DNA from: Asterochloris sp. CNOR1
Lineage: Eukaryota; Chlorophyta; Trebouxiophyceae; Trebouxiales; Trebouxiaceae
Direction: 5' to 3'
NCBI GenBank assembly: GCA_963969365.1
Contig: OZ017751.1
Location: 434,001 to 498,000, forward strand
Length of the DNA stretch: 64,000 nt
The notes below the pieces were generated by a model. It made no database searches. It was not told the DNA's origin and saw only the letters and a list, made by a program, of their open reading frames with translations. The number at the start of each line of letters is the position of its first letter. Position 1 is the first letter of the stretch. A program made the translations under genes and the position numbers. Shown one piece after another: positions 19,016 to 62,698 of this stretch.

Positions 19016-21792
19016 ATGATCGCGATACTGTCCATTCGGCAGGCCAGGCCTGTCTGCACTCCCTGCAGGTTTCGCACAGTGAGTTGCAAGGCCGAGGCAT
19101 CAGTTCCTCCCTCCAGGAGGCAGCTTCTGTCTGCTGGAGCTGCTGGGGCTGCCAGCCTCCTGTTGACTCGGCAGAAGGCTGTGGCGCTGGAGCTCTTTGA
19201 TCACACGCAGTACAAACGTAGGTGTTATTTTCTACCTGATTGCAGCCATCCTGCCGCAGTGCTGAGCATGGCAGCCATGTCCTTCCATCCTGGCGCATGG
19301 CTCTAATAAGTTGTGGCACCTGACATTGACAACCCTATTGGGCCTGTGCAGCCTCGCTCGACAGGCTGGACCAATCCAGGGACGATGCAGCCAACTACAA
19401 GCAGGCCCGGTACTTCATGCAGGAGCTGAACCTGCTTGGGTGAGGATGGCACTGCAACCTGTCAGCAGCATTTCCGTGCTCTCTGCTGCTGAGGCTCCTG
19501 CTGCGTTCCCAGGATTCGCTCGGAGCCACGCTACAGTCAGCATTATGCCTGCCACACAGGCTCGTATGCATGCATGCACAGCCCTGCATGAAATCGTAAC
19601 TTATCCTTACATCATGCCCTCTTGGCCCTGTGTCAAACTCAAAGCATCAGCAGCGTTCATGGCCTGCACTTGCAGAGAAATGCTTTCCAGGTGCTGGCCG
19701 CTCCAGTCTATGCTGCATCAAGCTTTGGCCCCATGCTCGACCACACGATAGCACCTGAATATCAGGCTGAGCTCTCCCTACCTCCCTGTGCATCAGACCT
19801 GTGGCCTTCCAGCCCTTTAGCAGACCACCCATTTGCATCACCCTTCTTGTGCACTTACTGCTGCCCTGCAAGCCTGCCAGATGCACAAGGCATCTCTGCG
19901 TTCAAGTGCCTCACCTGGTCTGTGCTGTCCCTGCCTCCCTGCAGCAGCGAGCTAAACCCCCAGAATGCATCTCTGCCGCTTGCCACCCCACCCAGCCTGC
20001 CCTTTCCATGCCTCCCAGCAGCAGTCTGCCTGACAGCTCTGTGGTTGCCAGCACGCCGCATTGTCCCCTTGCCATAGAGCATCGCTTTCACAAGCCTGAG
20101 CAGTCCATGCCGCCCTCCCACGCGATGTGCATGCGCAGATGGCATGAAGACCCCATACCAAGCTGCTCACTCCCTGGCCCCATGCAGGCTCGCTGACCAT
20201 GCACAGGAGGGCACGCAAGTCCCTGCTGCACTTCAGCTGCTCAATCCCTGGCCCCATGCAGGCTGAATTGGTCACGCAGAGGACGCGCAAGTCCCTGTTC
20301 CACCCAACCTGCCCACCTGCTCTGCCTCACTTCTGGTCCCCTGCAGGCCTCTGGAACGTTTGAAAAGAGACCTACAAGTCGCTACTGCATCCAGCCTGAG
20401 CGTTCCTGGGCCCCTGCTGGCTCGCTGTGCATGCAAACAGGGCATGTGAACCCCACCTGCACCAGCCTGAGTGCTCCCTTGCCCCCTGCAGGCCTGAGGA
20501 GCATGCAAAGAGGGCACGCGAGTCCCTGGACAGGCTGCAACGCGACATCAAGGCGTCCGTGGACCGCAAGAGCTGGCCCCGGGTGACAGCAGACCTCAGG
20601 CACCAGATGGGCACCCTGAGGTGAGCTGCAGTCTGCAGATAACCTGGGCAATTGCAGACCATCTGGGTGACCATATCCGGGGAATTTTTGTCACATGATT
20701 TCGCAGAAGTCAGGCACCGGACGGGCAATCTGAGGTGAGCTGCCCAGAGCAGAATGGCAACCAGATATCTTGTGCAGCTGCACCGGTCACGCAGACTCAG
20801 CAGCATCCCTGCATCTGGGCCAATCTGCTTGTCACCCAGTGCAGACTCTACAGCCTGCGTTTCCTCCAATGCTCCCTCTGCACCTCCTGCAACTTCACCC
20901 ATCGTGCAGATGCAATGACCCTCCTGCGACTGGGCCAGGCTGCTTGCCGCCAGTGCAAACTCAGCAGCCTGCAAAGCGCCCCCTGCCTTGCTGCCAGGCT
21001 TTCTGCCCTGCACCCATCTGCTTTCACCCAGAGAGTACCTTCCATGCAGCCTGTAGTCTGTGCGCCCTGATTGGTGCAGAGTGCTCCCTGTCCTGCCTGT
21101 GGGTCTGGCTTGCACCCGCTGACCGCCACCATGCAGGGTCATCAGTGGTCCTGCGTGTGCCTCAAAACATTTCCTTCGTGCAGGCACAACCTGGACAAGC
21201 AGTTGCCATGAAGCGAATATGATCAGCACTCCTGCACTCCTTCTGCACATATTCTTCTGGTGTGCTGCTGGAACAAGACAGACAAGCCGACTGCCACAGG
21301 CAGGCAGCAGCCCTCCTGCAGCACTCCCTATCGAAAGCTCTCTCTGGCCTGCCTGCAGATATGACCTGGACAAGCTGATTGCGGCCAAGGACAAGAGCGC
21401 CCGCAAGGAGGCCAGCAAGCTGGAGGAGGCAGCCATGCAGGCGCTGTCAGATGTGAGTCCCTCCTGTGACAGCCAGAAACAGCACTGCTCATGCCTCACT
21501 GACCAAAAGCCCAGTCTGCCTCATACACCCCCATCCCTGCTGTGGTACCTTGCTTGCTGAGTTGTCTGCATGGCGGCTGCAACTCGCAGGCTCCTGCCTC
21601 ACAATTCCTCACCCTGCTGCAGCTGTCCAACCAAAAACAGCGGCAAAGGTTTCCTGCTGGCGCCCTGCATGCCAACCTCGTTTCACCCTGCTGCAGCTGG
21701 ACCAGTCCGCCCGCTACAATGGCAAGGGTGCCAGTGAAAATTATGAGGCTGCAGTCAAGGCGCTCAGCGATGTGGTGTCCTTCCTGGCGTGA
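19016..21792 (+). CDS. psbQ: PsbQ-type photosystem II oxygen-evolving enhancer protein (OEE3)
   Basis: A lumenal subunit that stabilises the Mn/Ca cluster of photosystem II; NDH-associated PsbQ-like paralogues cannot be fully excluded. Five exons (19016-19217, 19352-19439, 20492-20620, 21359-21452, 21697-21792) sum to exactly 203 codons including stop. Residues 1 to about 30 are a basic chloroplast transit peptide. SRRQLLSAGAAGAASLLL followed by AVA is a twin-arginine lumenal signal with a processing site. The mature part starts LELFDHTQYK and is all-helical: LDQSRDDAANYKQARYFMQE, AKRARESLDRLQRDIKASVD, WPRVTADLRHQMGTLR, LDKLIAAKDKSARKEA and a final ALSDVVSFLA. This four-helix layout with a conserved Trp and LR..(M/V)GTLR is the PsbQ signature. 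Introns 2-4 contain decayed copies of neighbouring exon edges. Confidence 0.88.
20164..20453 (+). repeat. Decayed tandem copies of the PsbQ exon-3 acceptor region
   Basis: Four imperfect units (about 20164-20225, 20239-20297, 20326-20386, 20391-20453), spaced about 65-85 bp, each resemble the genuine acceptor plus the first 35 bases of exon 3 (20470-20540). They share a CCC(T)GGCCCC.TGCAGGC core, then a CATGCA(A/C)AG..GGGCACGC-like stretch and AGTCCCTG. They lie inside intron 2 and lack a usable frame. Confidence 0.75.
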
Positions 21793-22487: not shown

Positions 22488-25400
22488 TCAGGCAGGGGCG
22501 TGAGCTGTGCCGAGCCTATGAATGGAGCAGATGTTGCAGGAGCCATTTCTAGCTCCAGATCTTCTGCACCTGCAGACCCACAGAGCAGGAGTGAGCCGCA
22601 ACGTGCTTGACAGCTGGGACGCGGTGCTGAAGTGGTGAGCGACGAGCTTCTGGATGCCGTCAGTGTTGCCACGCAGCCAGGGGCGCTCATCATGCTGAGT
22701 GAGGTGGGCCGCAAGCTTCTGCACGGCTGCAGGTGCCAGGATGCCGGAGTTGGGCTCACTCGCTGCAGCAGACTGCTTGCCTGTGTGTGGTGCCACATGG
22801 CCAGCAGCGTAGAGACGGCATCTGCATCACTCGGGTCCAGGTTCCTGCAGTCATCAGCACAGCCCAGCTCAGCTCGTTACACCAGCTGACGGAACTCTCA
22901 CAGTCACCTTGAGCAAGCTAATCCAATCTCAGCAGCCGTCAGCACAGCATGATGTGAAAGCCGGCGTGCCCTCTCACAGTCACATGGAGCATGCTGGTCC
23001 TGTTCCCCGCAGCCGTCAGCACAGCATAGTCCAGCTGAAGTGCTGGTGCTACATGGTTGTGCATACCACTCAGCACCATCTGCCCCAGCTGCAACGCACT
23101 GGATCTAGGACAGGGGACACCAAGCCAATGGCAGCCAAACACCTTGTGGCAGAAAGTTGCCGTCCCCTCACTTGCGGTGCACAGTGCCAGTCCACCTCCT
23201 GACTCCAGCAGGGCAGACATGGCAGTCAGCTGCAGCCTGCTCACCTCTTCTACCGCAGGTCGGCCCCAGGGCTCCTACAACATGCACCCCTGCGTATTCC
23301 TGAGGCCCCAGCCAAGCCACTCAGGCATGCCCACTCGCTTGTTCTGCAGCAGGTCAATCCTGGAGAGCTCCCACCCCGACCCTGGCACTTTCCCTGTGGG
23401 CTCCAGTCAAGCAGCTTTGTCTTGTCAGGCAGCTGGTGCCAGCTCACTTGTTCTGCAGCAGATCCTTCCCAAAGAAGGGCTCCCACTCGCGTCCCTGCAG
23501 GTCCCCGCTGGCTCCAAAGTTGCCTGACACCCTCCCGTGTGCACCTAGGTCGCTGGACTCGGCCGCCTCGCTCCTGGCCTCACTGCTGGGGGTGTAGGCA
23601 CCCAGCACGCTGCGGATGCCCCTCCTGCACAGCAGACTGGCACCCCCATCGCTGCATATGCACCAAAAAGCCAGGGGTGCACCAGCTGCCTTCGCCGGGA
23701 CAGAGCGATGCCCCACCTGCTCACCAGCATGGCTTCCCATCATCAGGCAGGCGCTGCACATGCACCAGCATAGATGATGTGCACTGGCTGCCATCAAAGG
23801 ATCGGAGCAGGCTAGGCAGCTGCTGGCTGCAGGCAAGGCAGTGCCCAGCTGCAGATGTGCAGCCACTGCTGAGACTGGCTGGCAGAGCTGTGAGCCAGAA
23901 ACGGCCGCTACTCCCGGTATCTTGACCAGCCACACCCCTCAAAAAGCTGTGTGGCCGTGAGCCAGTGACACCAGGTCCAGCTGCACACGGCCTGACTGAA
24001 GCCCAGGGCATGCTGCACTCTGCTGAGGGGTCTAGGCTGGTGGGTTACTGGCTGAGCTGGACTGTACCTAGCTAGCTGGCTGCATCGCTGTTGTGTGCTG
24101 CTGGCACTCACTCAACAGGTGTGTCAGGAGAGCCCAGCTGGTCCACAGTAATCCCCACAGTCACGAAGTCCTCTTTCAGGTAGGCTGGCGTCTTGATCTT
24201 GCGCCTCTTGGGGCCCTGTACAAACAATGGTGATGCGTCTCAAGAGCCAATGAGATTCCTTCTCAAAGGAGAGCCACCTTGGGGGCATGCTCTTGAAAAT
24301 CAGGCAGGTACCTTGGGAGGCACATTCAGTGTTTCAGCAGCATCTCACCTGGGGCACGCTCTCTGGCTCGCTGATGTCAGACTCGAGGGGGGTGTACTCG
24401 TGCTCAGAGTCGTCCAGAGATATCTCCTCCACACGGCGCTTCTTGGGGGCTGCCACGCGCTTGCTAGCGCTGTCAGGCTTCTGCAGGCACACAGGACATT
24501 CAGGTCTTGGGCACAGTGACTGCAGCAGGGTGACTCACTCCTTGGGGCCTGAAGCATGCCCACCAGGGCTGACTGGCTTCAGCAGGCACACTGGGCGCTG
24601 TGTGCAGGGCACCGGTCTCCAGGCACAAGGGAGGCAATAAGGGTGTTGGGCCAAACGATGCTGCCTGGGCACTGCAGGCACCTAGGTGCTCAATTGCTGG
24701 TGACAGCAGGCCCTGCACATGCATAGCGTGACAGCAGCCTGTGCCCATGCCTAGAGTGACAGCAGCCCATGCCCATGCACATACATAGGGTGACAGCAGC
24801 CCAGGCAAATGCATAGGGTGCCACCCAGCCATGCAGCTCAGCTTGGCCAGAGCTGCATAGCTGGGTGGCAGCCCGCCTTGGCAGCACAGCTGCAGGCGCA
24901 GCTCAGGCAGGCTGTGCAGGGCGTCAAGAAACACGTGCCATGCCAGCACGGCCTCGAGAGCCCACTCAAGGGACTCACTGCAAAGCCGGGGAGGTTGCCG
25001 CGCTTGTACTTGATGCCGCAAGCATTGCAGGCAGTCTTCAGGCCATAGGGTCCGTCCCTCCACTGGGGCGTCTCTGCAGGCCAAGCAGCAGGGTGCTTGC
25101 TGCAGCACTGCAGGGGCGTGTTGGCTGTGAGGCCAGGCAGCTGCCATGCAAAGCTGGAGCACACTGTGGCGTCAGTACGGGGCCAGACAAGTCGCTCCAA
25201 CAGGAAAATACAGTCCAGGCAGGAGTTGCTAAGGGGAGGACATGGCCTGGAATGTGACAGTGGCCACATACAGGAACACAAAAGCCCAGATCTTCAGGCA
25301 GGGGACAGCCATTGCAAGCATTGGTCAGGGAGAAGTCCTCGCTCTAGTTGCAGCTGCCAGCTGCTTGGACACCGTGACCAAGCAATGCAGGAGCAGGAGG

Positions 25401-30200: not shown

Positions 30201-33200
30201 TGTGCTGAGCGAGCTGCACCAGGTCCATCCCGGCGCTGCAGACGACTGCCAGCCAGATGCCAGCCCCAGCGTCCCTGGCTGTAGCAGCGACAAGGGCTCA
30301 GAGCACTCAGCGCCCTGCAGCCCGCCCTGCAGCCCGGGCCACGACAGCGTCTTCGGGAGTCTGCAGTCCCCCCGGGACCTCACACCCTGTGGCTCTGGCA
30401 ACGGCACTCTGTGGGCCGTGCTGCGCCCGAGACACATCCCGACCGACAGCCAGGGGCGCACGCTACTTCACTATGCTGTTGTGGGTAAGGTGAGCTGCTG
30501 GCAGCCACTTGCTTGCTGGTGCACTGCCTTCTTTTGCAATCTGAGGGACCAGGCCAGGCACTTGGTGGGCTGCAGCGCTGGTGGCTCCAGCTCCACTTGT
30601 TGTCCAGTCACGCCTTGCTGTGCGCTCAATAACACCCCTTGTCACTGGGTTCTGCGGCATGTTCCCAAAGACAGTAAGAGTCGCACTCTGCAGCAATCGG
30701 GATGTGAGCAAGTTGCACTGCTGGCAACCAACTGCTTGCTGGTGCTGCGCCTCAAGTGCTCTAGGACTTGCACTGCTGGCACTGCAGCCACAGCCCTTAT
30801 TGATCAAGCTGTCTTAGGGTGTCTGCTGGCCGCATTGCTGAGGGCGGCCTTCTGTCAGGCAGCACTAGGGCTCTGCCAAGCTGCACAGGATCTGTAACAG
30901 ACTGTGAAAGCACTTGATCGGCAACCCCAACTGCTGGCTCACACAGAGAGGCTGTAATGGTTCTGCTGGCGGTCATGCTCTGCGTTAGGCCTGCAGGAGA
31001 GGTGGCTGCTGGACCACTTGCTGGAGCATCCTGAGACGTATGGCATCAACGCCGCAGGTGAGTCACCATGGTGTGTTGTTGTGGCTGTGCCTTCAGCTTT
31101 CTTTGCTTCTGTGTCTGGTGTCACTGCCCTACACATGTGCTCCTGGACCACATGTTGTCTCCTGTCTGCTGCAGACCATACCGGCAGCACGCCACTACAC
31201 CATGCGGTGCGGGTGACGTGTGGCAGGGGCTGGACCCACAAGTGTGGTTCAGAGTGCGTTCAGATGGTAACAGCGCTGCTGAAGGCTGGCGCTGACACCA
31301 TGCGTGTGGACAACAAGGGGCGCACTGCCCTGCACTACTGCTGCATGGTAAGCTGACATAGGACGTGCTGATGACACACTGTGCATGTAATCTGAACTGC
31401 ACTATTGACTGACGAGCGTGTGGCCGGCATGTCGACAGCAAAGGGTGCACTGCTTTCCACTGCTGATGCTTGATGGCATGAAGCAGGCCTGCCTATTTGA
31501 GCTTCACAGTCATTGTTACATTTGCACAACGCACTGAGGCATGCTGCGGCTTGGGACGTATGGTGCTGGACAAGCTTGTAAGGTTGCTGCAGTATTGCCC
31601 CTGCCCTTTCCTGCAGCGGCTTCTAGATTGAGCACCCATGCCATGTCTGCTGCTGTGTATCCAGGGGCCCACCTTACCCAGCGCCTCTTGCTTGCCTCTG
31701 CAGTTCACTGCTGCATTACCTGTGTTGCTGCCTGCAGAGGGCTGCCTGGCCAGCAGTTTTTGCTCGGTCCTGAGGCTTGGCTCATGCGTCTGTGACTCTC
31801 TGCCTGCAGAGAGGCTGCAAGACCAGCAGTTGCCAGTCCACCTTGGAGCTCCTTTTGGTGGCGACACCGTCTGCAGCGCTGAGGGACTGGACCGGGCGGC
31901 CGCCACTGCACCACCTGCTGCTGGTGAGCACAACATTGTCAGTCAGTCCCTGCCCAGAACTGGACCACTTCCTGCTGGTGCGCTTGGCACGGTGGCCATG
32001 GTGCCCTGAGGGTGGCCAGTGTCCTGAGCGTGGCCAGTGTCCTGCCAGCCTGCTCCTAAAGTTTGAGGTCAGCCAAATACTGCCATGCATGCTCCAAGTG
32101 CCCTTTTGCTGAAGGTGTCTGAGCACACCAAAAACTAGGCATGGCCCCAATGCAGTGAGGGGACCACGCGCTGCCTGAGAACGTTGCAGCTGTGATGATG
32201 TCCTTGTATCAAAGGCTTGCATGCCTGCAACGCAACACACCCCTTTGTGCGGCCCTCAGGACGAAGGCTAATCACATCACAAACCTGCAGCATTCCAGTG
32301 TCAAGACGGTGCCATGCTGCGTGGTTCAGCGGCATGCTGCATTCCCTGCAGGTGTGAGAGCCAGCCTGAAGCCCACACTGTCTGCCGCACCAGGAAGGCA
32401 GACCATGTGGTGCTGCTGCGCCTGACACAGTCTCGGGCCTGCAGCTCATCGTCAGTTTGTGCGTTGCTGCAGGCAGCTGACCCCAACTCTGGCCTGGCGC
32501 AACTCTCAGTCTGTGCGTTGCTGCAGGCACCAGACCCAGTCTCAGGCCTGGAGCTGATCGTCAGCAGCAGCCGCGCAGTCCCCTTGGACCAGCCCCAGGC
32601 AGGCAGCGAGGGCCTGCGGGCAATGCACCTGTGCATGCCGCAGGACGTCCGCCGGAAACTGCTGGAGATGGGGGCTCACGTGGATGTGCGCAGCCGCCTG
32701 GGCTGCACGTCGCTGCACTACATGGCATGCCAAGGAGGGCTGTCAGAGTAAGCTTCTCGCCTATGGTTGGCCGCCACTTACCTTTGCTTCTCTAGGAGAA
32801 ACAGTGTGCGGCTGCGCGGCCTGCACCGCTGCAATATGTGGCCTGGCCCATGTGCCCGATCTGGCGTCACCTGGTCAAGCAACCACCCATGGCAGAGGTT
32901 GGGCTGCACTGCGCTGCTGTCTGCCTATTGTGTGTCCCTTACACCATGCGCTGTCGGCCTGAGCCAACAAAGAGCTGGGCTTGATCATGGCGGTTGCTGG
33001 CCAACAGAAGTTGCCAGGCTTCTGCTGACGTAAACAGTGACCTTGCATGCATGAGGGTTGCCGCTTTCTTAAAGTCAGGAGCTGCTTGCAAGCACCACTC
33101 ACTATGGAGAATGCAGACATGAATTACATCCTTGTGGAATTGGCTGGTGCAGGCCTGAGAAGCGCGCCAGTGACATCATTCAACTGCTGATGGCTGGGGC

Positions 33201-37100: not shown

Positions 37101-38880
37101 CTCCTCCTGCTGCTGCTGCTTCATCTGCAGGTGCAAGTAAGTTGTCACCTGCCGTGGCGGCTGCACTGGCCTTGGATCAGCTGAAGCATGGACAGCTGTC
37201 CTGCCGTTGCTCTGGCTGCTGTCGCAACAGCGCGGGCAGCGTCGGTGGTCGACGCTTGCTACAGGGATCTTGTGGGCATGCCTCTCAGGAGCACTCGCAG
37301 GACACCAGGATGCACATCCCCCAAAGTAGATGGGCTGGCCTCTCAGGCCCACACAAAGCCCACCGAGAAGGATGCGACTGCGTGGTCCCTGGAAGCTTAC
37401 AGGCAAGCCCCCCACCTGGCAGCCAATCAGCATGACCCCACCTTCTGCTTCTGGCGGTGCCTCTGCTGCGCCCGCTTGTTCTGCTCTGCTTTGCGCAGCA
37501 CCCTGGCCTGCGTATCCCCCAGCGCCCCCTTCAGAATTTCGTCCTGGCTCTGGCTGCTGTTGCTGGAGGTGCGCGCAGGCTCGGCCACTTGCACAGGCGC
37601 CCCGCCTACACTGGAGACCGGCCCTGCTCCCTGGCTTGGCGCTGGCCCAGCTGTGCCCTGAGACACAGCCTGAGACGCCGCTTCCCCTGCAGCCGACAGA
37701 GATGGGCAACACCTGAGCTGGGGGGCACTTGCACAGATGTTGCTGGGTGTGCACTGGCCGCCGGCCCCATGCACTGCCCCACTGCTGGCCCAGCCGTGCC
37801 AGGCCCAGCTTAGTACTGAGGCGCTCTCCCAGCAGCAAGCAGAAACTGAAATGCCTGAGCCAAGAACCAGCTACAAAGAGGTTGCTGTGCTTGCACTGGA
37901 CACGGGCCCTGTACACTGGCTCACTGCTGGAGACGGCCATGCCCTAAGACACAAAACAGGACACCATCCGATATGCAGCCAGCAGGTATGGACGCCTCTC
38001 AAGTTGGAGGCCATCGGCATGGGTGCTGTGCCTGCACGGATGCCAGGCCCCCGTTCAACTACACTGAGTGAGCCCACAGTTGCAGAGCGGAGACCATTGT
38101 TCAGCATGCAATAGGCTCCCCCGGGGCGCCATGTCAGTGCTTCCCACACGCCTGAGACCCTTCAAGACCTGACCCCAGAACTGAGACCCTTCAAGTCCGC
38201 GACTCACCGCTCTGATCGTCAAAATGCATAGCTTGTGCTGCTGGAGAGCCCCAATGAGATTTGCTGGTGGGCAAGCTACCCCAGGTTGCCATGCCGCTGC
38301 TTGGGATGGAGCCCTGCTCTGAGGGCTGCTCCTCGTCTGACACGCTGACCACGGGGGGCAGGCAGGCCACCAACCGCTTCTGGGAGTTGGAGAGGCTGGG
38401 CAAGCCTGAGAGGGAGGGAAGCTGCATGCTGAGGCCCTGGGACGCCATGGCCTCACTGCCTGGCCCTTCCACAGGCTGCAGACCTGCAGCAGGCAAAGCA
38501 CATTCGGGTTGCAGCACAAGCTGCCTGGGACTGCCGTTGAGAAGGTGCAAGCAACTTGTCACTCTTGGCACAGCTGCAGCTCATACACTATGCTGAGACA
38601 TCGTTCATCTGACAGCACTGGCAGGGCAAGCACCATGCAGATCTCAAGACAGCAAAACTTGAGCGGTACCTTCCATAGACATCGCAATGGCATTTGCAGG
38701 CACCACGAGGTGCTCCATGCCGCAAGCTGGCTGTGCCTGAAAGCCAGAGAGCTCCGCTGGCTGCTCCAGTTTGTATTCCCACTCCTCGCTTGTCAGCATC
38801 TGCAGGGTCTCATCATCCATGCCCCAGTCAGGAGAGTCCCTCTGCAGCTGAGGTACAGGCATGTTTGTGAGAGTGCTCAT
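34140..38880 (-). CDS. bZIP transcription factor
   Basis: The start at 38880 (MSTLTNMPVPQLQRDSPDWG) opens an acidic, Gln-rich N-terminus. A Ser/Pro-rich exon (about 38500-38205) follows. The basic region is on the exon ending near 37440: VLRKAEQNKRAQQRHRQKQK, fitting the N-x7-R/Q bZIP consensus in a divergent form (NKRAQQRHR). The zipper continues on the exon at about 36943-36795 (MKQQQQEEIASLRSQLQEA, then LRLKQVASSRSATLEKAM). Downstream helical exons of unknown fold are SVCTEMIEYSRDAPFSPNA (about 36500), INRFASMLADAGGDDRSPVV (about 35770), SIEHVLQAAHAQAERKEKQR (about 35430) and LLAMLQAHLRLTRDQQLQII (about 35020). The end (LLSGFQSIGSQAISSHARIA near 34170) is inferred. Chlorophytes have many such bZIP proteins with long unannotated C-termini. 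The plant DOG1 domain is not evident. Confidence 0.75.
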
Positions 38881-43591: not shown

Positions 43592-46500
43592 ATGCCCTTG
43601 ATCAGACATGCCATTGCTGTTCGGATTGTAATAGCATGGCTTCTTACCACCACAGGTAAGCCTGGAGCTAGCAGTTCCAGCTTTACACCCTATTCTTGGC
43701 CAGAGCCCATGCTCGTTGACACACATCGTTCACATGTGCAGCCATGCAGCTGGCAAGAGGGGCATATTGCCCCTCAAATGTCAGCATCAGGGCAGATGGC
43801 AGCACATGGCAAGCATTGCCTCTTGAGCCTGGCTGTACCCAGTACCTATCAATTCCCACAGGCGCCTGCAGCGGAGTGGATCCGTGAGCACTGCTGCCAC
43901 CCTGCAGACCTGCAGCTCTCATCAATGTCTGATCGTCCCCATTGCTGAATGCTGGAGGCGGGATGCCACGCCTGCAGACCTTTGTGCAGTTTGGCATCCT
44001 TCAGCTGCAGACAGTGGTCCTGTCATTTCTGCCCACGCTTCTGCAGGCCCTAACTGTCTGTGCCGCCCCTGCAGACACTTTCTGCACTTTGAGATGTGGG
44101 ATCTGGATCAGGTGGGGTTGAACAATGGCATGGGCAGCCCCGATGACCCGACAAGGGCAGACCCTATCTTGCTGATGGCAAAGGGGTACCTCCCCAGCGT
44201 TGGGTTCAGAGATTTCAATGACCCATCCAGCTTCTTCTTCAGCCCCTACTCTGCCCTCAGTGACACTGTTGGCTACCAGCTGGAGCGCCCCTACATGCAC
44301 ATCCAGACCAGGTCAGGTGCCCCCATCGCTGTACTGGCTGTTGTGCTGCCATTGGTCTCGATTCTCAGGGCATGATGGCACGCACCCATGCTGCTGGCTT
44401 GATGCTGCCTGGCCAGCTTCTGGCAGCACCGCTGGTGCCGAGCATGTGCCATATAAAGCCTGGTCGACTTGCAGCACCTCTGACTGCACAAGCACATCTG
44501 ACACGATGCCAGCGGGCAGTGCTGGCAAGGCATCACTCCTGCCTGACGGCTGAAGTTGGCACACACACGGAGAGCAGATGTGCAAGCGCCATGACCTTCT
44601 GCCTGTCCACTGAAACCAGGCACCGGCCAACATACTGCAGCTTTGTCCTCACACCTGACGCTTTTGGCATCTAATTTCCAGTTCAGACAGCTCTTGCCCC
44701 GCCTGCAGCTATTCAGCTACCACCCCCTGCTCAGCCCAGTGCCCCCCAACAGCAACCAACCCCAATCAGTGGTGGGTGGCTGTCCAGAACACCCCATTCA
44801 CAGCGAACACCCTGACCTACCAGATCCGAGCCAGCTGCAGCGCACAGCCCCAGTGCCCCAGCCCTGTGCTGGCCACTGGCGGTGCAAGAATGCCCCTGGC
44901 ACAGTGCTCAGCACATGGGCAGTGCACCGGCCAGGACGATACCTGCACAACAGCTGTGAGCCTCCAGTTGCTTGCTTTCTTGTTCTGCTGTCCTGAGCCA
45001 GACGCAGCTCACAGCACCAGTGCCGCTGGCACATGGGTGACGCACCGGTAGTCCACTGGCCAGGACAGCACCTGCATGGCTGCCGTGAGCCCAAGGCAGT
45101 GCTGACTGCGGTGGCACCCTGCAGAGCGCCATCAAGCATATGCTGCACTGCAGTTCCGCCCTGCAGTCTCTCACCCTCGCTCTCCGCATGGACCTGCAGA
45201 ATAATATTGACTCTGGGCGCTGTGGGGCGTGCACCTGCGATGCAAATTGGGGGGATGTGGGCTGCAACATGCCCACGCCTTTGCTTGACTGGAGCGTCCC
45301 CACTCAGGGAGCCCAAGTGCCTCCCGGCAGTTGGCAGTACTTTAGCATCCAGGTGCGCCCTACAGCCTGTTGTGTAGGTTGTGGTCGATCACATCTCCAC
45401 ACAAGTCGGTGGCAGCCATCCAACAGTGAGTTTCCAGCACCAGTGAGCTCCAGTACCAGCAGCTGCCCTGCGGCTGCGCAGCCTGCCTGGCGCTGCAGCA
45501 CGCAGCCCAGAGCTGCAAGTAAGTACCTCTGCTGCTGCCAGTGCACGGCGTGGTCTCAGGCAGTGTCAGGCGCTGCCTTGCCCTACGCATGGCAAAGCTC
45601 TGTGATCATGGCAAGGGGTGCCGTTCTGCATTGCACCCTGCAGAGCCAGGTGCAATGTTGGTCAATGGCTCCCTGCTCATGACTCCTTGCCTTTGCAGCT
45701 GTGTGTGCGCAGCACCAAATCGAGCAGCCCGCTGTCAACTTTCTTCCTTAACACAGCTGTGCCTGCACAATGCATAGCCCCCTGCCATGTGTGGCCCACA
45801 AAGCCCTTGACAGTGCCAGTGTCGCTGCCATCCACTGCTGTGGCAGCCCATTGTGCACTGCATCATTCTCTGTGACAGCTCTGCCTGCTGCTTGCATGGT
45901 GCTTGCCATGCACTGCTCACAGCCCTATGCCACTACTGCCTGCAGCCGCCCTCCTACACCTTGCAACGTACCATCTGCATCATATGTGCGCGATCAGCAG
46001 TGCCCACACCTTTAAGAGCTGTTTGGCTGACACTGCCTCCAGTGCTTCTGGCAGCTGCCCTCCAGCGCATTATCTTCAGGGCCAAAGGGGCAGCCCATGG
46101 TGTGAGCGTTTTCAGTCAGTCTCAGCAGCAGCTGTGCCCCCTTCCATGCCTCCTGCCTGCCATGCATGACCGACAAGCTGCTTCTACTGTCTGCAGCTGC
46201 CGTCCAGCACCCCTGCCCAGCAGCCTACGGTGGGAGCTGTCAGCCTCGAGATGAATCGCACCCGCGGAGACGAGGTGCTCTTCCTGATGCCGGCCTCTGC
46301 CGGCCAGCAGCTTGGCAGCGTGCCCTCCCTAGTGAATTATCAAAACTACGCTGACAGCTCCAGTTTCATGGATCGCTCCGACAGGCACAGCTGCTTGCTG
46401 ACCAACCAGTCCGGCTTGTGAGTCAATCAGCACTGGCCAGATGGATCAACTGTTCCTCTGAGCATGGGCATTAACATCAAGGAGTTGGGCCTGTGCGTGA

Positions 46501-49500
46501 CAGCTTGCACTGCGTCACCCGCCTGAACTGTCAGAGTTGGCTGTGCATGTCCCGCGGGGCCTTCTGAGGTGCCGTGCATGGTCCAGGCGCTGGCGCTGTC
46601 TGTGTTGCTTACCAGGAGCCTTCTGGTGTGACAACGACCCACGTCTGTCACACCAGAAGGCTCCTGGTATGCAACACAGACAGCGCCAGCGCATTGTCAA
46701 GATGTTCCCCTTCATTGACCTGTGAGTCATGCGTGGACTGCATAATGTCCCAGCCTGGCCCTGCAGCAGATGAGTGTGTACAGCTGTGGGTGCAGCTGGG
46801 TCTTGCTGCATGCATCTCAATAGCCATTATTGCCTGGCGATTTGGTGCCCAAATATTAGACATGCTGCAGACGTATAGGCACGTGAACCTCTCATCCTGT
46901 GCTGCAGGCTCTACGGCGCTGTCCTCAACAACAACCTCTACCTGAAGGAGACTGCCAACTTCACTGTCCAGGCAGATTGGGTGCCCTTGCTGGCTCCACT
47001 GTGCCCCTTCAACTGCTCCTTCCATGGCCGCTGCATCAGCACTGGCAATTGTGACTGCGACCCAGGTGGGTTCCTCCTGTGTGAAGCGGGGCTCCTGGGT
47101 AGTCTTTCCTCTTTTGGTCAGGCTGCATGTGGGTGCTGACAGCAGTGTTGCCAATGGCGCCACTGCATGAGCACGAGCACTGGCATCTGCGACCCAGGTG
47201 GGTGTGTCCAGACTGCAGCGGGTCTGCACCCCGTCGTGGGTTTGCTTGCGGGTTGCTGCGACTAGCATGGGCAACAAGTCTCTGATGCAAACGGGCTTTG
47301 TCAGTGTGCAGTCTGTGATGAAACACCTTACTGACTGATGCTGACATGGCCGCTGTATCGGCATCTGTCATGCGTGGCCGGGTGTGGCCTGTTACACATT
47401 CCACAGGGGCCTCTAGCAGCCAGCTGCAGGGTCCACATGCTGACCTGCATATCTGCATGTTGTGACAATGCAGGTAAGCAGCAGTGGCTGACAGTGCTGG
47501 GCTGCGTGATGCAGGCCTGCCACGGCCCCAGGTAGTGTGGGGGCTGCTGCCAGCCACCCCACTGCTCCCATTCAACACAATCAACAAGTTCACAGGGCCC
47601 CTGCAAGCAAATATGTGCAAGGCCTGCTAATCAATCTGGTGCAGGCCCTGGCTCAGTTGCAGCACAGAGACACGACAAGCAACTCATGTTTTGCCTGCCA
47701 GGCTGTGCAACAGCTGTGCAGGCTGGTACTATGACCACTCAGACGGCCAGCTGCCTGCAGCAGAGACGCCCTCCCTTCAAACGTCTGACTTCACTGCAGG
47801 CTATGGTGGGAACCAGTGTGAGGGCCTGCTGACCAGCCTGCCCCCGATTACACAAGCCCTAGGCAGCCTGCAGCCTGGAGAAGTGGCATACTTCAATTAC
47901 ACTGTCCTGCCCAACAACACTCAGGGCATTGTCGTGAGCTTCGACAACGATGGCGGCCATGCAGTGGTGGTGATCACGCAGGGCGCATGGCCCACAGTTC
48001 AGAACTATGACTTTCCCATCCGGTGAGCTGGTGCTGAGAGGCATATTGGTGGGAGTTCAGGTGGGAGCAAAGCAGGTGAACCACCACATGCCATGGCCAT
48101 GAGTCAAGAGCAACATTACAGGACTGGTGGTCAAGGAATTAGGTGTCTGCCACAATATGTGCACACCAAGCAGGCCACTGCCCATCAGGCGAGCTCACCC
48201 TCAATCTTGCAAGCATCTGTGGGTAGTGAAGCACGTGGCGCTGCTTGCAGACATGTTTGAGTGAGTCGGGAGCTGCTCTTGCTGTCCTGGTTACACCTAA
48301 CAGGCTACCTGCGGCGTAGTCAGCGCAGAGTGGACTTGTCCTGCATGCCCTGAGGCAACAATGCCTTTGGCAACCCTTACCGTGCTTGCCTGCTGTCATG
48401 CAGCAGATCTGTGGCAGTGCGCCCCTCAGGCCCCCCACAAGCAGCTGCATGTGCCCTGCCTGTCAGTGCTGCCTGCCTGCGTGACATGAATCATCTCAGG
48501 GCTTGCCTGACAGAAGCACGCAAGCTGCCAACAGCAATCATACTGGCCGGACATCACTCTGCCCTCCTGCCCTGCAGGATACAGTACAACCAGGTCGGCC
48601 TCACCAACGTGGCTGTTTCTGCCAGCTCACTGCCGCCAGGAGACTACATCATTGCAGTGCTCAACCTTGACTACTATGACCACGAGTCATTCACCTATGC
48701 GCTCGCGGTGGGTTGGCTTCTGTCAGCCGCTCTGAGCAGAGTACCGGCCCTGCTTCAAGCAAGCCACCATGAGGCATTGAGTTTCAACCCCACTGTGGGT
48801 CAAGCACTGTTCACTGCGGTGTTGCTCAGCAGCGTTGTCAGCCCCTCAATCAGGCAGAATGCTGCAGCGTCATCATATAGAGGCCTTACAGAGAGTGGCA
48901 GCATTTATCTGTATGAGGCTGCGGCAGTCATTATCTGCTCTCACAGACTGGGCACAAGCCCTTTGCAGAGACCTAGGTTGTCACCCCTGCCCCACCTACC
49001 AAAGTGCCCACAGCAGGTGGTTGGCTGTGCCCCTCCCCACCTGCCCCACACCAGCCAGGTGGACCTACATCTAGGTTGTCTGCCTGCAATGCAGGTGTCC
49101 CCCTACAGCAACAGTGCTGCCCGCCTGGCTCCTTTCCTGAGCCTTGGACTCGGACTTTCATTCTTTGTGGTCCTCTGCGTCGCGCTGGCCCTGCTGAGGC
49201 GCAGCGTGGAGCGCCATGGGTGGCCCTGGAGGTGGGCTAGCTGCTGTACTGGTATTGCTGCTTGAGGCATCCATGGGATACCTGCACAACATGACCTGAG
49301 GTGTCACACAATTCTCTGATGTCTGATGTCCTGCACACTCAGCTGCACCCAGTTTGCCCAGACCGCCATACCCTCTGCCAATCGCATCGCCCCTTTGGTT
49401 GAAATCCATCGTGTTTCATTTGGAGCTTGGCCAGAGTGTCAGACAGGGTCTGCTGCGCACTGTTGTGGACTCAGTGAGATTGTGGCTGCTTTGACCTCAC

Positions 49501-54055: not shown

Positions 54056-54342
54056 GGAACAGACACCCTGGGTGACCCCCCTATGTGCCGTGATGTGTCC
54101 CCAGCTCACCAGCTGCTGATTAGAGCCCCAATTTCATAGCAATGCGCTAGACTCATCACATGATTGTTTTCCCCTAAGGTCCCCATGCTGAGTTGTTGCT
54201 TGGGGTGTGCCGCCTTGGAGCCTGGTGCCCTGCGAGGGGAAGACTGCTGGTCACAGTCATACCCAAGCATAACTCTCTCATGACTGCGAAGTCTACGAGC
54301 TGAGAGGGCGTGGCAAGCCAATCAGGGGGGCTGGGCCCCCCC

Positions 54343-54621
54343 CTGCGCCATACAGGATCCAGGGTGTTTGCATTTTGGGCAGCAACCTCAGCTAGCAGTC
54401 CAACGTGGTGATGAAGCCCAGCACAGTGCTAAGGCCTGCTATGAGCCGGCTCCCTCTTTACCAGCCAAGTACAGTGACCTGCTTGATATGCCTGTACTGC
54501 TTCTTTTTGTACCCCTACACCTTCCGCAAAGTTCATTGGTAGGATGAAATGATCATGGTCCTATGCCCGTGCATTGAGGCTACGGACTTAAAAATTAAAT
54601 CATCATCATCATCATCATCAC
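54343..54621 (+). repeat. LINE 3'-end unit, copy 1
   Basis: The 3' end of the retrotransposon, from CTGCGCCATACAGGATCC to the (TCA)n tail. It is repeated almost identically 289 bp downstream. Confidence 0.85.
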
Positions 54622-54631
54622 ATACATACCT

Positions 54632-54900
54632 CTGCGCCATACAGGATCCAGGGTGTTTGCATTTCGGGCAGCAACCTCAGCTAGCAGTCCAACGTGGTGA
54701 TGAAGCCCAGCACAGTGCCAAGGCCTGCTATGAGCGCCGGCTCCCTCTTTACCAGCCAAGTACAGTGACCTGCTTGATATGCCTGTACTGCTTCTTTTTG
54801 TACCCCTACACCTTCAGCAAAGTTCATTGGTAGGATGAAATGATCATAGTCCTATGCCCGTGCATTGAGGCTACGGACTTTAAATTTAAATCATCATCAT
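54632..54900 (+). repeat. LINE 3'-end unit, copy 2
   Basis: A second copy of the same 3' end, again finishing in a short (TCA)n run. By eye it differs from copy 1 at only a few positions. It is probably a second, severely truncated insertion, or a tandem 3' end produced in one insertion. Confidence 0.85.
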
Positions 54901-54971: not shown

Positions 54972-57047
54972 ATGGCAGATCCGAGCTCTCTCTGGGCTCA
55001 GCCTGACATGTTGCAGACTTTCTCAATCACAGTCATGCCTTCTGGTCACCTCGCAAACGAGGATCTGCAAAGCTTCGATTATGTGCTGTTCACATCAGAA
55101 CCTGCGGAGGAGTCAGCTTCTGACCTCACTGTCTTCGTGACGAAACGGCTTGATCTTCAGGTCCAGCCTTTGTTCTATGTCAGCATTGCTGGAAAGGCCC
55201 TTGGCTTGGTGTTGGGCCGTATCATCAGCAGGTTCCTGGGGAGATTGCTAAGCAGCAGCAATCGGCCTTTGACCAGTCAGATGCCATTTGCTGGGCAGCT
55301 CACCATCTTCTGTGACCTCGCAGCACCCAGGCCAGCACCGGCAGCTCGGCCAGCATTAGCAACTGACAAATAGGGGCCAGCGCCACCTGGGCAGCAGCAA
55401 GGCAAGGGCACCAATGCGCTTTCTGCGGCTGCCAATGAAGCTGTGCAAAAGTACTGGAACAGGATATCGACCGACCTTGAAGGTACGTTGCACTTGCTTG
55501 TTTTGATATTGCACCTATCCCTGGTCTGGCATACTAAGCCGTGCACATTGTGTCTGCAGGCAAGCTTGCTAAGCCTGTGTATCTGTTTGCACTGAGCAAG
55601 AGTGGCATGCTGGTGGACTGGGTAAAGCGTGCTGTCATTGCCCATGTCTATGAGGGGTCTCCAGCACTTGCTGAATCCCTTCAGACCATGGAGCAGGAGA
55701 AAATGTTGTGGGAGCATGTGGTCAATTAAGTGGCCAGGCTCAACATTCTCGCTGCCAGCCTGGGTGCCATGCTTGCTGCCCCCAAGTGTTCACAGTGTTC
55801 ATCACTCTTGACTCCTTGCAGTACAACACAAGCATGCCTTGAAACCAATTGCCAGCTGCCGCGCACTACATCTTGCATGTGCTGTGCAGGTATGGGGGCA
55901 ACTACAACAACAAGACCATGACCCTCATGAAGGGCAGGGGGACAGCTCAAAAGGGCCATGCCTCCAGCACGGCCAAGTGGCTCAGGAAACTCACAGTGTG
56001 GCGACAACGTGCCGCCTGACGTGCAAGGTGCGGTGCTGCTTTCCGCTTGCACTGTGCAAACAGCTTTAAATCTCATCATCTCCCAGCCTGTCCCCTCCGC
56101 CCTGTTTTTTCCAGCACACCTTGGTGCGCAGGCATCAGCAGTGTCTGGCATTAAGCTTAGATCTTCTGTGGTTCTGCAGATATGCTAGACAGGGTTGACA
56201 AGAAGCGAGAGAAGGTTTCCAGGAAGCGGGTGAGCTGCTCTCTGCAAGAGCCCTTGTGCTCGTCAAACCTGCCAGCTAAGAAGCGTTGCTGCTGGCACAT
56301 GTCAGGAAGCATGCAAGGTGCATACCTGCCTGCAGCGGTCAGGCGAGGGCAGGTGTGTCGCGGCTACCAAGCCGGACTCAGCAGCTGCTGGGGCAGCCTC
56401 TGCCGGTGTGGTTACAGAGGTCAGCCCTGTGGTTGTGTTCAAACCACCTGGTGCTTCTTGTGATGTGCAGTCTGTCAGGAACGACCTGCCTCCGCAGGCT
56501 GCTGCTGCTGACCAGTTGTACTTGGAGGAGCAAGCAGCTGAGTATGAGCGCAGTGTGGCACCGGCAAAGCCGCGTTGCAAGAAGCTGCGCACACCGGCTG
56601 CCGCGCCCTTGACAGGTGTGCGGTGTCATTACCATGGCTGTGTTAACATCTTGCCTGATGCTGAGGGCTCATGCCCTGCCCAGCTGTTCTCAAGACCACC
56701 TCTGAAATTGTGTTGTCTGCTGCAGAAAGACAGCCACGCGCAACTGTTGTCAAGGCCACAGGTTGCAAGAGGCTGCGCACACCGGCTGCCACGCCCTTGA
56801 CAGGTGCTTGTGTCATCACCATGGCTGCGTTGCCTGATGCTGAGGGTTCATGCCCTGCCCGGCTGGTCCCAAGACCACCCCTGAGACTGTGTTGCCTGCT
56901 GCAGGAACTCAGCCACGCGCAGCTGTTAGCAAGGCCAGCAAGAAGCCGCAAGTCAGGAAAAAGCAGCCTTTGCAGCAGGAGCAAGAGCCAAGCGAGGCCA
57001 GCAGCAGCGAGAATGACGGCGGGGATGACAACTCCACGGATTCTTGA
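54972..57047 (+). CDS. Unrecognised multi-exon gene
   Basis: The frame is open from 54840, inside the LINE tail, but the first plausible start is the ATG at 54972 (MADPSSLWAQPDMLQTF). The N-terminal part is globular (FSITVMPSGHLANEDLQ; LTVFVTKRLDLQVQPLFYVS) with a hydrophobic helix (GKALGLVLGRIISRFLGRLL). Possible later exons encode AVQKYWNRISTDLEGKLAKP and SGMLVDWVKRAVIAHVYEG (55430-55690), YGGNYNNKTMTLMKGRGT (about 55890), a Lys/Arg-rich piece near 56190, and a low-complexity basic/acidic tail ending SSSENDGGDDNSTDS with a stop at 57047. The link at 55373 and some splices are unproven. No family is recognised. The tail contains near-identical exon-intron repeats. Confidence 0.5.
56560..56940 (+). 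repeat. Tandem repeat of about 187 bp containing exon, donor, intron and acceptor
   Basis: Two adjacent units. Each has GCAAGAAGCTGCGCACACCG-like coding sequence, CCCTTGACAG followed by a GTG(C) donor, an intron with GATGCTGAGGG(C/T)TCATGCC, a TGCTGCAG acceptor and a CAGCCACGCGCA(A/G)CTGTT exon start. Splice-site-like sequences are kept in both copies. Confidence 0.85.
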
Positions 57048-57249
57048 AGCTTTTCACAGCATGCTCTTTCCTGGCCAGCTGGTGATGCTGTAGGTGGCTG
57101 TCCAGCTGCCTGGCTGTGTACAGCTGTGAACAGCCTGCAGGCTGGCCATGAGCAGCATGGTCCACTCTTAGCTTTGCAGACAGCTGCCTTCTACAAAGCA
57201 GCAAACAGCTGCAGCTGCATACAGGCCCACATTGAATAGAACAGATGAT

Positions 57250-57783
57250 CAATAGTGAATGCTCTGCATTTGTTTATTTAATTTCCTCCTTCATCCTCTG
57301 TACCATGACAGAATTCACATTCCTGGGCTTCTCCTTTACGTCTAGTGAACCTTCCTCGATAGTCCGCTTTCTTCCCCGGAATTTCCGCGGAGTTCCTCCC
57401 GCTGTGCAAAAACCCAAGGGAAGGGCAAGGAAACCTGGAGAATCATGGCGGAAATTTGATTAAGTTCTTGGAAACAGGCGGAATCCGGGAGGAAGATCGG
57501 GGAAGGCCTCAGTTCTCTGAGTGATGGCAGCAAGAAGGAAGCAAGGGCCAGCAGCATGGCCTCCTCAAGGTTCAAGAATGGCCTTGCTGCTGAGGTCAGG
57601 AGCCGCATGGATTCCTTGGGCAGCACCATGGCAGCTGTTGTCGGGGCTTTAGAAATGGAACGTGAGCGCATTTCTGCCACCAGGACAGTCAGCTCACTGC
57701 AGCAGCTATGCAGCAGGTACAGCAGTATTCCAAGCTGCTTGGCAAGCGTAAGCAGAGCAGCTGAGCAAGTCTTTGATTTTTAA
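57250..57783 (+). CDS. Possible two-exon gene, unknown helical protein
   Basis: The second exon is the better part. After a GAAACAG acceptor near 57477 it reads EESGRKIGEGLSSLSDGSKK-like sequence, then MASSRFKNGLAAEVRSRMD, STMAAVVGALEMERERISAT and a stop at 57783. It is strongly helical with coiled-coil character and Ser/Lys-rich. The proposed first exon (to about 57462, ending KPGESWRKF) is AT-richer and weak, and the start is unknown. Reminiscent of helper proteins of DNA transposons, but I cannot assign a family. Confidence 0.3.
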
Positions 57784-59584: not shown

Positions 59585-60005
59585 AGACTAATGCTGAGCA
59601 GAAAGGATTGTCATGCACTTACAAGCCTCTCCCCCCCTTAGTTTTGGTGAATTTGGTGGGGCTCACCTGCCCAGACCAGCTGCATTTGCCAGGCAGATAG
59701 GTAGCACATGTCAAGCAGAAGGGATGGACATGAGCACATGTCAGGGGCATATGAGCCCCTTTTCCCCTGACATTAGGCCCCCCTCCCCTAACTTTTGGTG
59801 AGCGTGGTGGTGCTTGCACAGTTCAGCTCTGTCTGCTTCAGCACAAATTGATGTCAATCGAGGAGATGGGCATGCCTGCATGGGCCCTCCTCTTCTGTTT
59901 CTTGGTGTTCATGGTGACATGCACCTGCCCAGACCAGCTTTGTTTGCCTTGGCAGATGTGTCCAAACTGATGTTGAGCAGAAGGGATGGAGCCAATGTCC
60001 GGACG
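59563..60005. repeat. Degenerate repeats of about 120-130 bp
   Basis: Four decayed units start near 59563, 59680, 59821 and 59940. They share GCTCTGTCTGC(T/C)T or TTTGCC..GGCAGAT stretches, an (A)ATG(T)(T/C)GAGCAGAAGGGATGG core, and CACCTGCCCAGACCAGCT between units. They overlap the 5' end of the minus-strand gene and extend upstream of it. Nothing coding is apparent in 60006-60515. Confidence 0.6.
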
Positions 60006-60515: not shown

Positions 60516-62698
60516 GTCTAACCACGCCCTCAGGAAGCGCCTCACCACCACAGCGCAGACTCAGGAGTCAGAGGTAATTGCTACGCACCAGGCATGTGTC
60601 GGTCCATCACTGAACCAATGCCATGGGGTACAGGGTGTCGATGGCAGGCCATTTTTTGACAGGGAGGTGGAGCAAGCCCAGTTGCTTAACCAGCTCAGAG
60701 AGACCCCAGACAACTTGCTGCTTGTGCTGGGCCCTCTCAGCAGTGGCAAAACCCGGCTGCTTCAAGAGGTTCTGCGGAGTGACAAGCTGGACACCTCAGT
60801 GTCATGGTTCAGCGGCCGTGATCAGAAGCTGTCAGATGCCAGTGTGATGGCTGAGGCCCTTTCTCACGAGCTTGTCGCCCAGCTCAATGCCTTGGAAATT
60901 GGGGAGGGGGTGATGCAGACAGCCAAGCAATTGGTCCAGACCAAATTGGGCATCGACATCAAGTTGCTTGATGGCAATGAGACCATTAAGCTGTTGCCTG
61001 CAGCACTGGCAGCATCAGCAACACCCACTTCATCTGCCATAAACATGCTGATTGGTGCCTTTGAGAGTTTGCTGGAAAAAAGGGAGGCAGCCTCTGGGTC
61101 GCCGCCAGTCATCTGCATTGATGAGGTTAATGTGCTGATGGACTGCTTTGAAGGTGACAGAGCGTTGCAGACTGATCTCGATGCTCTGCTGAGGTTCTTC
61201 GTCCAGGTGGGATGATTTGCTTGTTGCTGCATTGCTTTTGCTGTGATGTGCATATACTTGTGGACACCTTTGCTCCACGCAGATCACTAAGGTGAAGCAG
61301 CGGGCCCATGTCATTCTCGCCACCTCCGAGTACAGCTTTCTGACCTGGCTGCAAAATAGTGAGCCTTCAGATTCTGTCCTCAACAGCCATGTTCATGTTG
61401 CAACTCACCCTTTTGTCTCATGCAGAGGTGAAGGTCGGCTTTTTCATCACAGAGGTCATTGGGGACTTCCCTGAGCCAGAGGCACGCGAGTTTTTCCAGG
61501 GTTTCTGAGCAACAACAGAGAAGTCACTGACACGCAGTGGACCAGCGTCTTTGAGGTGAGTCACAGGTTGCTCTCTCCTGTCATCTGGTGTGGCGCAAAC
61601 ATTGTTGGAGCTGGTGCCTTCTGCTGCATTGCAGGTCTGTGGAGGCAACGCTGGCTTGCTGACGACCACTGCCCGGTTGATCAGAAGCAACGGCGATGTT
61701 CAAGAAGGTTGGTCACTTGTGCTGGCTGTGCATCGCGTCCAGCACTATGCTAGATATGCTGACATGATCCCCCATTTGTGTCACAGCTCTGAAAGTGGTC
61801 TGGCGCCAACCCTTTATGGCGGTGAAGTCTGGCCTCGCGGAAGACCGTCTGTGGGGGTCAGAGCAGTGTCGCACCATGCTGCGGTTCATTTGTGAGTCTG
61901 ACCATGCAGCAGTGATTGTTACAGATGCACACCGGGAGCTCAAACCAGGCGGCAAGCAGGCTGTGCAGGCCATGGTGAAGGCCGACCTGTTGGCCTACAG
62001 GTCAGCATCAGGTAAGCATGTTGCCACTTGATGCTGTTGCCTGCCCTGGTACGGCGCAGAGGAAATAGCCCTCCATCAAAGTTGAGCCTTCCTTGCGCTG
62101 CAGCATGGGCAAGAGACATTCCATTGGAAGCCTTTGGCCCAGAGCAGGAGGCCGTGCTGACTGCACCCACAGCCACACATTTGTATTGCATGCGCCGCCT
62201 GCAGGGGCGCGGTGCCTTGACGGTAAGCGAGTGATGGTGGTGGTGTGAGAGGCAGGTGCACATGTTGGCACACAGTGCTTGTTGCCATTGACTGAGTGAT
62301 GCATGGTTCTGAGAGGCCCTCAGCCTGAGGCCACCGTATGTTGTGACTGCACCCTCAGCCACAAACCTGTCCAGCATGTAGTTCGCACAAGGATGGCTCC
62401 CTTTAGGCAGGCACTGAGGTGAAAGCTTGCAATGGTAGAGTGCTAAGGCTGCTTACTATTGGAGGCTCCTCGCAGCAGGTGCTGCTGATGCTGTCTGTTA
62501 TATGTTGCAGGCTGCACCCAAGTCTTGGAGCAGCAGTTTCAGGATGTGGGTGGCGAGATTACTAGGGGGAAAGCAAGGATGAAGGTGCTGAGGATAACCA
62601 AGCCAGAGGGTTGGGAGGATGAGCTTGCATACCTGCGTAAAAAGGACAAGCAGCTCCTTGAGAAGGAGCTCCTGTTGCTGCGCAAGTCAGACACTTGA
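60516..62698 (+). CDS. P-loop ATPase of the archaeal-ATPase (ATPase_2) type, apparently frameshifted
   Basis: A STAND/AAA-like NTPase of unknown role; families of this type are multicopy in several green algae (general knowledge). Exons: 60516 to about 60576; 60634-61206, carrying FFDREVEQAQLLNQL, Walker A GPLSSGKTRLLQEVL, SWFSGRDQKL and Walker B PPVICIDEVNVLMD; about 61283-61360 with HVILATSEYSFLTWLQN (sensor-like); about 61426-61556 with VIGDFPEPEAREFF and VTDTQWTSVFE; VCGGNAGLLTTTARLI near 61635; a winged-helix-like exon (61787-62000); AWARDIPLEAFGPEQEAVL near 62105; and a final charged helix ending LLLLRKSDT. Between EAREFFQ and the continuing FLSNNREVTD the frame shifts at 61498-61502, as if one G were lost. 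The start is undefined. Confidence 0.72.

Follow-up and report, generated by a model that had tools for sequence, protein, structure and literature searches.

The 64,000-nucleotide stretch of Asterochloris sp. CNOR1 analyzed here (the window; contig C6, OZ017751.1, positions 434001 to 498000) encodes 13 predicted proteins. A Pfam scan of 10 of them, 2 of which had no match, identified Thg1, PsbQ, GATA, ankyrin, F-box/JmjC, RING, reverse transcriptase, and AAA/ATPase_2; Rfam gave no match at gathering thresholds. Introns in the window hold degenerate copies of nearby exon edges, from which a preliminary description had concluded that introns grow by tandem duplication of exon-intron junctions. 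We confirm that local similarity in direct orientation is a real feature, well beyond what chance would give, and find that its association with exons is explicable without targeting of the junctions; the earlier interpretation is partly supported.

The analysis covered the window and 200 kb of contig C1 (C1:1000001-1200000), together 264 kb, or 0.47% of a genome of 56.4 Mb in 21 contigs. The C1 segment lay outside the discovery of the pattern and therefore serves as a replication. Genes in both regions were modeled, without RNA support, with a simple self-trained hidden Markov model (HMM) gene finder, which predicted 64 genes with 621 introns, a median exon length of 114 bp, and the consensus signals MAG/GTGAGY (donor) and YTGCAG/G (acceptor). 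The GC content of the C1 sample (0.58) and the many introns per gene agree with the figures in excerpted passages of the published account of Asterochloris glomerata (56 Mb, 56 to 62% GC, and 9 introns per gene; PMC6652019). The hexamer CTGCAG occurs 222 times in the window and 744 times in the C1 segment, about 11 to 12 times the mononucleotide expectation, and we think that the acceptor consensus accounts for only part of this excess. Because CTGCAG is over-represented everywhere, its presence at exon edges is weak evidence for primed copying.

Direct local copies in introns

Self-comparison at ≥31 bits and spacings of 50 to 600 bp yielded 86 direct pairs (34 in the window and 52 in C1), spaced 62 to 575 bp apart (median, 127 bp), versus 5 inverted pairs (1 in the window and 4 in C1), which bears out the direct orientation previously described; merging of the direct pairs gave 64 loci. 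Locality was also evident at ≥40 bits, where self-blastn returned 19 direct matches at 50 to 500 bp, none at 0.5 to 3 kb, and 1 beyond 3 kb in the window, the corresponding figures for C1 being 25, 0, and 6. Inverted matches at this cutoff were 4 in the window, all self-palindromes (<50 bp), and 4 in C1 (3 at <50 bp and 1 beyond 3 kb). None of 6 order-5 Markov shuffle runs contained a direct pair within 1 kb, and inverted pairs numbered 0 or 1. Blastn suppresses matches near their own diagonal; no pair spaced by less than 60 bp was returned at ≥28 bits, periods this short being outside its coverage. About one in nine predicted introns (69 of 621) is touched by a pair. A dispersed repeat was rejected as the source, since a genome search that skips very common words gave no second match for the three loci tested (20123..20528, 44828..45091, and 47027..47225).

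Exon edges were then compared with their own introns and with introns of other genes at a score cutoff of ≥32. Direct matches to the own intron were found for 19 of 547 donor edges and 17 of 561 acceptor edges, and inverted matches for none of either set. Against introns of other genes, donor edges gave 1 direct and 2 inverted matches in 1,641 comparisons, and acceptor edges 1 and 0 in 1,683. The two outcomes named beforehand as damaging to a local process, matches equally frequent in other genes or in both orientations, were thus not observed. Such copies had been reported in at least six unrelated genes (PsbQ, GATA, bZIP, ankyrin, EGF-RING, and ATPase). The first five hold them, whereas no true exon-edge copy was found at the cutoff used in the ATPase gene, whose upstream pair includes only 5 exon bases; all six hold or adjoin at least one pair (Table 1). 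Exon-edge pairs also occur in the gene at 55474-57529 and in the predicted gene at 1490-10310. Pfam supported the PsbQ, GATA, ankyrin, RING, and ATPase (ATPase_2/AAA_16) identities; EGF stayed below the cutoff, and bZIP had no match in the 723 of 1,037 residues of that gene model that were scanned. A recurrent local duplication process, as had been proposed, is supported by its presence in genes of unrelated kinds and on another contig as well. The statement that copies always lie near the exon they resemble holds less well: it partly reflects detection bias, and 16 of the 64 loci are intron-intron pairs without an exon.

Two pairs in the PsbQ intron at 20589-20972 are both spaced about 114 bp and lie in nearly the same register, which hints at a decayed four-copy array. 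In C1, the segment C1:1122053-1122832 (122053-122832 in joined coordinates) carries exon-edge copies mostly at steps of 86 to 112 bp, with a third copy in register; no other degenerate array in the sample is as clear. An intron of the EGF/RING gene contains, at 46587-46692, a near-perfect 106-bp palindrome (92%), and smaller palindromes are located at 24816-24873 and 43122-43172.

Table 1. Direct copies and neighboring repeats in the window
Gene and feature	Position	Strand	Spacing (bp)	Identity	Remarks
PsbQ-like, degenerate direct copies	20123..20528	+			PsbQ Pfam 5.1e-22; exon calls inside doubtful
PsbQ-like, pair	20123-20225/20423-20528	+	302	73%	
PsbQ-like, pair	20161-20231/20235-20303	+	73	79%	
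PsbQ-like, pair	20385-20444/20457-20516	+	72	79%	
PsbQ-like, exon end with GTGAGC donor/intronic copy	20589-20629/20703-20743	+	114	85%	
PsbQ-like, second pair in the same intron	20808-20858/20923-20972	+	~114	80%	
GATA-like, intron-intron pair	22895..23027	-	76	82%	GATA Pfam 2.9e-8
GATA-like, acceptor edge/intronic copy	24466-24495/24565-24594	-		83%	Decoy AG lost
Ankyrin, exon end (46 bp) and intronic copy	31302..31472	+	125	76%	Ank Pfam
Ankyrin, acceptor edge/upstream intronic copy	31800-31831/31728-31758	+		88%	Decoy acceptor intact
Ankyrin, acceptor edge/intronic copy	32519-32564/32411-32455	+		83%	Decoy AG lost
F-box/JmjC (bZIP-like), exon start with CTGCAG acceptor/intronic copy	36915-36945/37101-37131	-		90%	
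F-box/JmjC (bZIP-like), exon-intron pair and intron-intron pair	37609..37953	-	286 and 142		
EGF/RING, pair	44828-44857/44995-45024	+	167	87%	
EGF/RING, exon end with GTGAGC/intronic copy	44891-44962/45021-45091	+	130	72%	
EGF/RING, exon end with GTGGGT/intronic copy	47027-47093/47159-47225	+	132	75%	Decoy donor intact
Tandem pair with (ATC)n ends	54340..54900	.		97%	Just past RVT_1 open reading frame 52673-54052
Two tandem units	56574-56758/56762-56937	+		84%	Each with exon end, whole predicted intron, and exon start
ATPase, direct pair upstream of/touching predicted first exon	59664..59990	+	260	78%	ATPase_2 Pfam
ATPase, intron-intron pair	62158..62363	+	186	95%	20 bp

A duplicated exon-intron unit and a neighboring element

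The near-intact case reported at 56560-56940 is a real tandem duplication (83 to 84% identity). Since each of its units holds an exon end, an intron, and an exon start, the outcome of this event was a gain of one exon and one intron, not a longer intron. Pfam gave no match for this gene, which has five genomic matches, including the window itself. Both units are present in the window and in the copies on contigs C4 (97.5% over 2.05 kb) and C11 (88%), whereas the C8 and C15 paralogs, the latter broken on its left side, align to one unit only. The one-unit state on C8 and C15 is the state before duplication, which provides a before-and-after comparison in a single case. The dispersed copies of this gene (55474-57529) include one about 1 kb (C4) and another about 21 kb (C11) from a contig end, suggesting subtelomeric spread.

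Upstream of this gene, at 54340-54900, two 270-bp tails with ATC-repeat ends are 97% identical, a feature outside the earlier claims. Together with the preceding reading frame, the segment 52673-54900 looks like a long interspersed nuclear element (LINE)-type element with a second, truncated tail, separate from the exon-edge pattern. This pair is included in the 86-pair counts and was dropped from the locus, third-copy, and decoy counts; it has no exon-intron columns, so the codon-position counts are unaffected.

Decay of the copies and decoy splice sites

Mismatches between exons and their intronic copies amounted to 102 of 609, 82 of 610, and 140 of 609 at codon positions 1, 2, and 3, respectively (16.7, 13.4, and 23.0%). 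Stops were found in 5 of 558 decoy codons, all among the 217 codons with a single difference, for which about 7 would be expected neutrally. The copies thus decay nearly neutrally. The exon side showed a longer stretch of similarity than the intron side in 22 of 29 loci (56% in simulation; 380 of 677, no large indels), which is what selection on the exon copy would produce.

The duplications lengthen introns and leave decoy splice sites, as had been proposed. We mapped 28 decoys at the splice site itself (15 donors and 13 acceptors, corresponding to 24 distinct real sites), skipping introns beside predicted exons of <30 bp. The GT or AG is kept in 19 of them, and 16 of the 28 reach at least the 10th percentile of the scores of real sites (470 donors or 470 acceptors). 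No donor decoy and three acceptor decoys outscore the used site, a comparison biased by the preference of the gene finder for the stronger site.

Origin of the duplications

Ordinary random local direct duplication, combined with selection and survivorship, probably explains the general pattern. Through replication slippage, or through tandem duplication at staggered breaks, tens to hundreds of bases would be copied to a position about 60 to 400 bp away, in direct orientation and at largely random places within genes. Events that break exons would be removed by selection; those within introns or across junctions would survive, since the outer original site (first donor or last acceptor) can stay in use for splicing, and the extra copy would then drift neutrally within the longer intron. 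Recognizable old events would chiefly be those that include an exon with its splice signal, because selection holds that copy, whereas two intronic copies diverge twice as fast. The pace at which exon-intron copies fade, about half that of intron-intron copies, would thereby make the junctions look like the origin of the process.

Rotation of the annotation seemed at first to single out the junctions: 52 of the 86 pairs span one, versus 27.6 ± 4.4 after rotation, a value reached in none of 1,000 rotations. Rotation, however, permits within-exon duplications that selection would remove, and it ignores survivorship. We simulated duplications placed at random, rejected only if both ends were exonic, with exons and splice signals constrained and introns neutral. 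Over the full age range, the simulated fractions of junction-spanning, exon-containing, intron-intron, and intergenic pairs were 0.57, 0.70, 0.23, and 0.05, versus 0.60, 0.70, 0.21, and 0.01 observed. A locus-level simulation with the observed spacings, one best pair per locus, and no large indels gave 0.52, 0.66, 0.26, and 0.05, versus 0.59, 0.69, 0.25, and 0.00; here, as in the rotation of the 64 loci, predicted exons of <30 bp were taken as intron. Across all full-age simulations, the ranges were 0.64 to 0.70 (exon-containing), 0.22 to 0.28 (intron-intron), and 0.41 to 0.57 (junction-spanning), versus observed ranges of 0.69 to 0.70, 0.21 to 0.25, and 0.59 to 0.60; single age slices gave junction fractions of 0.23 to 0.64. 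Because the simulated exon-containing and intron-intron fractions match the observed ones, with the junction-spanning fraction close to its observed value, the exon association needs no targeting, and the priming at exon-intron junctions invoked in the preliminary description is not needed.

Several results weigh against so simple an origin. The matched blocks are short (median, 51 bp in the 86 pairs and 46 bp in the 64 loci), covering 0.40 to 0.41 of the spacing; when large indels are absent or mild, the full-age simulations instead produce blocks of 98 to 117 bp that cover 0.79 to 0.97 of it. Heavy erosion by large indels (0.1 per substitution) brings the simulated values to 69 bp and 0.41 but lowers the junction fraction to 0.41, and old-only slices (t 0.2 to 0.4) give 66 to 82 bp and 0.40 to 0.56 but an exon-containing fraction of 0.80 to 0.87, with only 0.11 to 0.16 intron-intron. 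Past the blocks, the flanks of 48 pairs with spacers of ≥60 bp are no longer similar on one side (z 0.7) and only weakly similar on the other (z 3.1). Rotation of the merged loci, excluding microexons and the LINE-type pair, still gives 38 of 64 junction-spanning loci versus 18.0 ± 3.3 (0 of 1,000 rotations), and a residual 1.1- to 1.5-fold junction excess persists over the simulation. None of the 64 loci is intergenic, where the full-age simulation expects about 5%. Finally, 84 of the 217 single-difference decoy codons are synonymous, versus 27% expected; slow synonymous change in the exon would account for this excess, leaving room for weak constraint on some copies. Simple uneroded tandem duplication was rejected, as it agrees with the class fractions but not with the block length. 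Simulated blocks in all full-age settings span 69 to 117 bp and 0.41 to 0.97 of the spacing, and the short observed blocks would mean either that the introns undergo many larger indels or that many of the copies began as short patches.

The latter is the prediction of short templated insertion by synthesis-dependent strand annealing, polymerase-theta end joining, or fork backtracking, in which a 30- to 70-bp patch is pasted at a distance and the spacer is original sequence. We regard this as the strongest competitor, though an unlikely one. The block-to-spacing ratio is below 0.5 in 54 of the 86 pairs (0.5 to 0.8 in 18 and ≥0.8 in 14; median spacer, 70.5 bp) and stays near 0.4 also at high identity, and the scant flank similarity fits as well. 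Only a minority of spacers resemble the expected neighboring unit: 8 of 64 exceed the 95% point of the null in direct orientation and 3 in inverted orientation, the mean leftover similarity being 39.1 (own direct) and 33.8 (own inverted) versus 32.1 for a null that mixes lengths. Regular third copies are likewise weakly enriched (19 of 79 versus 10.2 expected; score, ≥24). On the strength of one inverted example in PMC2671141, however, we would expect templated insertion to leave inverted copies too, and these are nearly absent; moreover, head-to-tail contiguity is seen in several of the strongest pairs, namely those at C1 112562 (93%; length, 89; spacing, 79), 149902, and 124231 and at 20161 and 56574 in the window.

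Duplication aimed at the junctions, primed at exon-intron borders rich in TGCAG and GTGAG, is less probable still. It would account for the rotation excess and for the observed junction fraction of 0.59, which exceeds the 0.40 to 0.54 that the locus-level simulation gave under every one of its nine age and erosion settings, so that there may be a modest junction excess. The exon-containing fraction, on the other hand, is not above random (0.69 versus 0.64 to 0.66, and 0.70 in the pair-level simulation), and intron-intron pairs are as frequent as expected. The size of the excess also varies with the gene models, which lack RNA support, and with the erosion model, stronger indel erosion giving simulated junction fractions of 0.41 to 0.44 over the full age range. 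We lend equally little credence to a process of direct local duplication restricted to transcribed genes, with a true 1.5-fold preference for exon-intron borders, pasting short patches at a distance without inversion and constituting a main source of intron length in this lineage, which would fit neither simple slippage nor known templated repair.

That the intronic copies are functional, as alternative or mutually exclusive exons or as selected decoys, is very improbable. Decoys within the range of real splice sites, the three acceptor decoys that outscore the used site, the peak of mismatches at third positions, and the synonymous excess speak for it. Coding alternatives are nevertheless not favored, given the 13.4% mismatch at second positions, stops near the neutral rate, and blocks mostly shorter than an exon (medians of 51 versus 114 bp).

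Intron gain by tandem genomic duplication, for which a potato case is reportedly known (PMC4974935), would require duplication of an AGGT-bearing exon segment. Its mark, according to excerpts of PMC3443670, is in-register donor/acceptor similarity at AG/GT. Similarity of ≥30 of 66 positions was found in none of 508 introns (0.46 expected), and mean donor/acceptor identity beyond the splice signals equals background. The small excess at lower cutoffs (15 introns at ≥26 of 66 versus 7.1 expected, 6 at ≥28 versus 2.05, and 4 gapped matches at a score of ≥32 versus 0.5) does not amount to a strong case among these introns, and we give intron birth by this route next to no probability. Chance or shared composition, to which CTGCAG richness and the splice consensus might have contributed, is ruled out for practical purposes by the near-zero inverted, 0.5- to 3-kb, other-gene, and Markov controls.

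Relation to known systems and significance

The ordinary duplication that we favor is a known kind of mutation, unusually visible in this alga genome. Short insertions arise as tandem duplications (Messer and Arndt 2007, as cited in PMC8355091), and those of <100 bp in human and mouse cells treated in the available portion of PMC8355091 resemble the alga copies in direct orientation, adjacent or near placement, short unit, and attribution to a general mutational process; the alga copies differ in being old, intronic, and often spaced, with an inferred mutational step. Repair-mediated duplication, as excerpted from Pace et al. 2009 (PMC2671141), likewise yields short proximal copies, including splice sites and exons that land in introns of their own gene, but with a median of 147 bp, distances up to 5 kb, and an inverted exon among the examples, whereas the alga blocks measure about 50 bp, lie within 600 bp, and are almost only direct. 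The intron gain described in the cited part of PMC3443670 shares the interplay of duplication with splice signals; in the alga, existing introns are lengthened instead, with no strong in-register case in 508. Introners, in the same excerpts, are also repeated sequences in algal introns but form dispersed families, whereas all three alga loci tested match only themselves, very common words being skipped. Exonize, applied to 20 eukaryotes, reports within-gene exon-to-intron and boundary matches that, in the excerpted text (PMC12343006), are generally fewer in lower eukaryotes; that tool seeks coding-exon matches, whereas the alga fragments often carry the splice signal. Among the papers listed by literature searches, with subscription journals mostly outside their reach, none dealt with exon-edge copies in green-alga introns.

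The exon-edge association carries a warning, in that it can arise without any exon-aimed mechanism, from purging of harmful events and slower fading beside conserved sequence. Since about one in nine predicted introns keeps a trace of duplication, the introns of this alga may serve as a fossil record of intron lengthening, of which decoy splice sites are a by-product.

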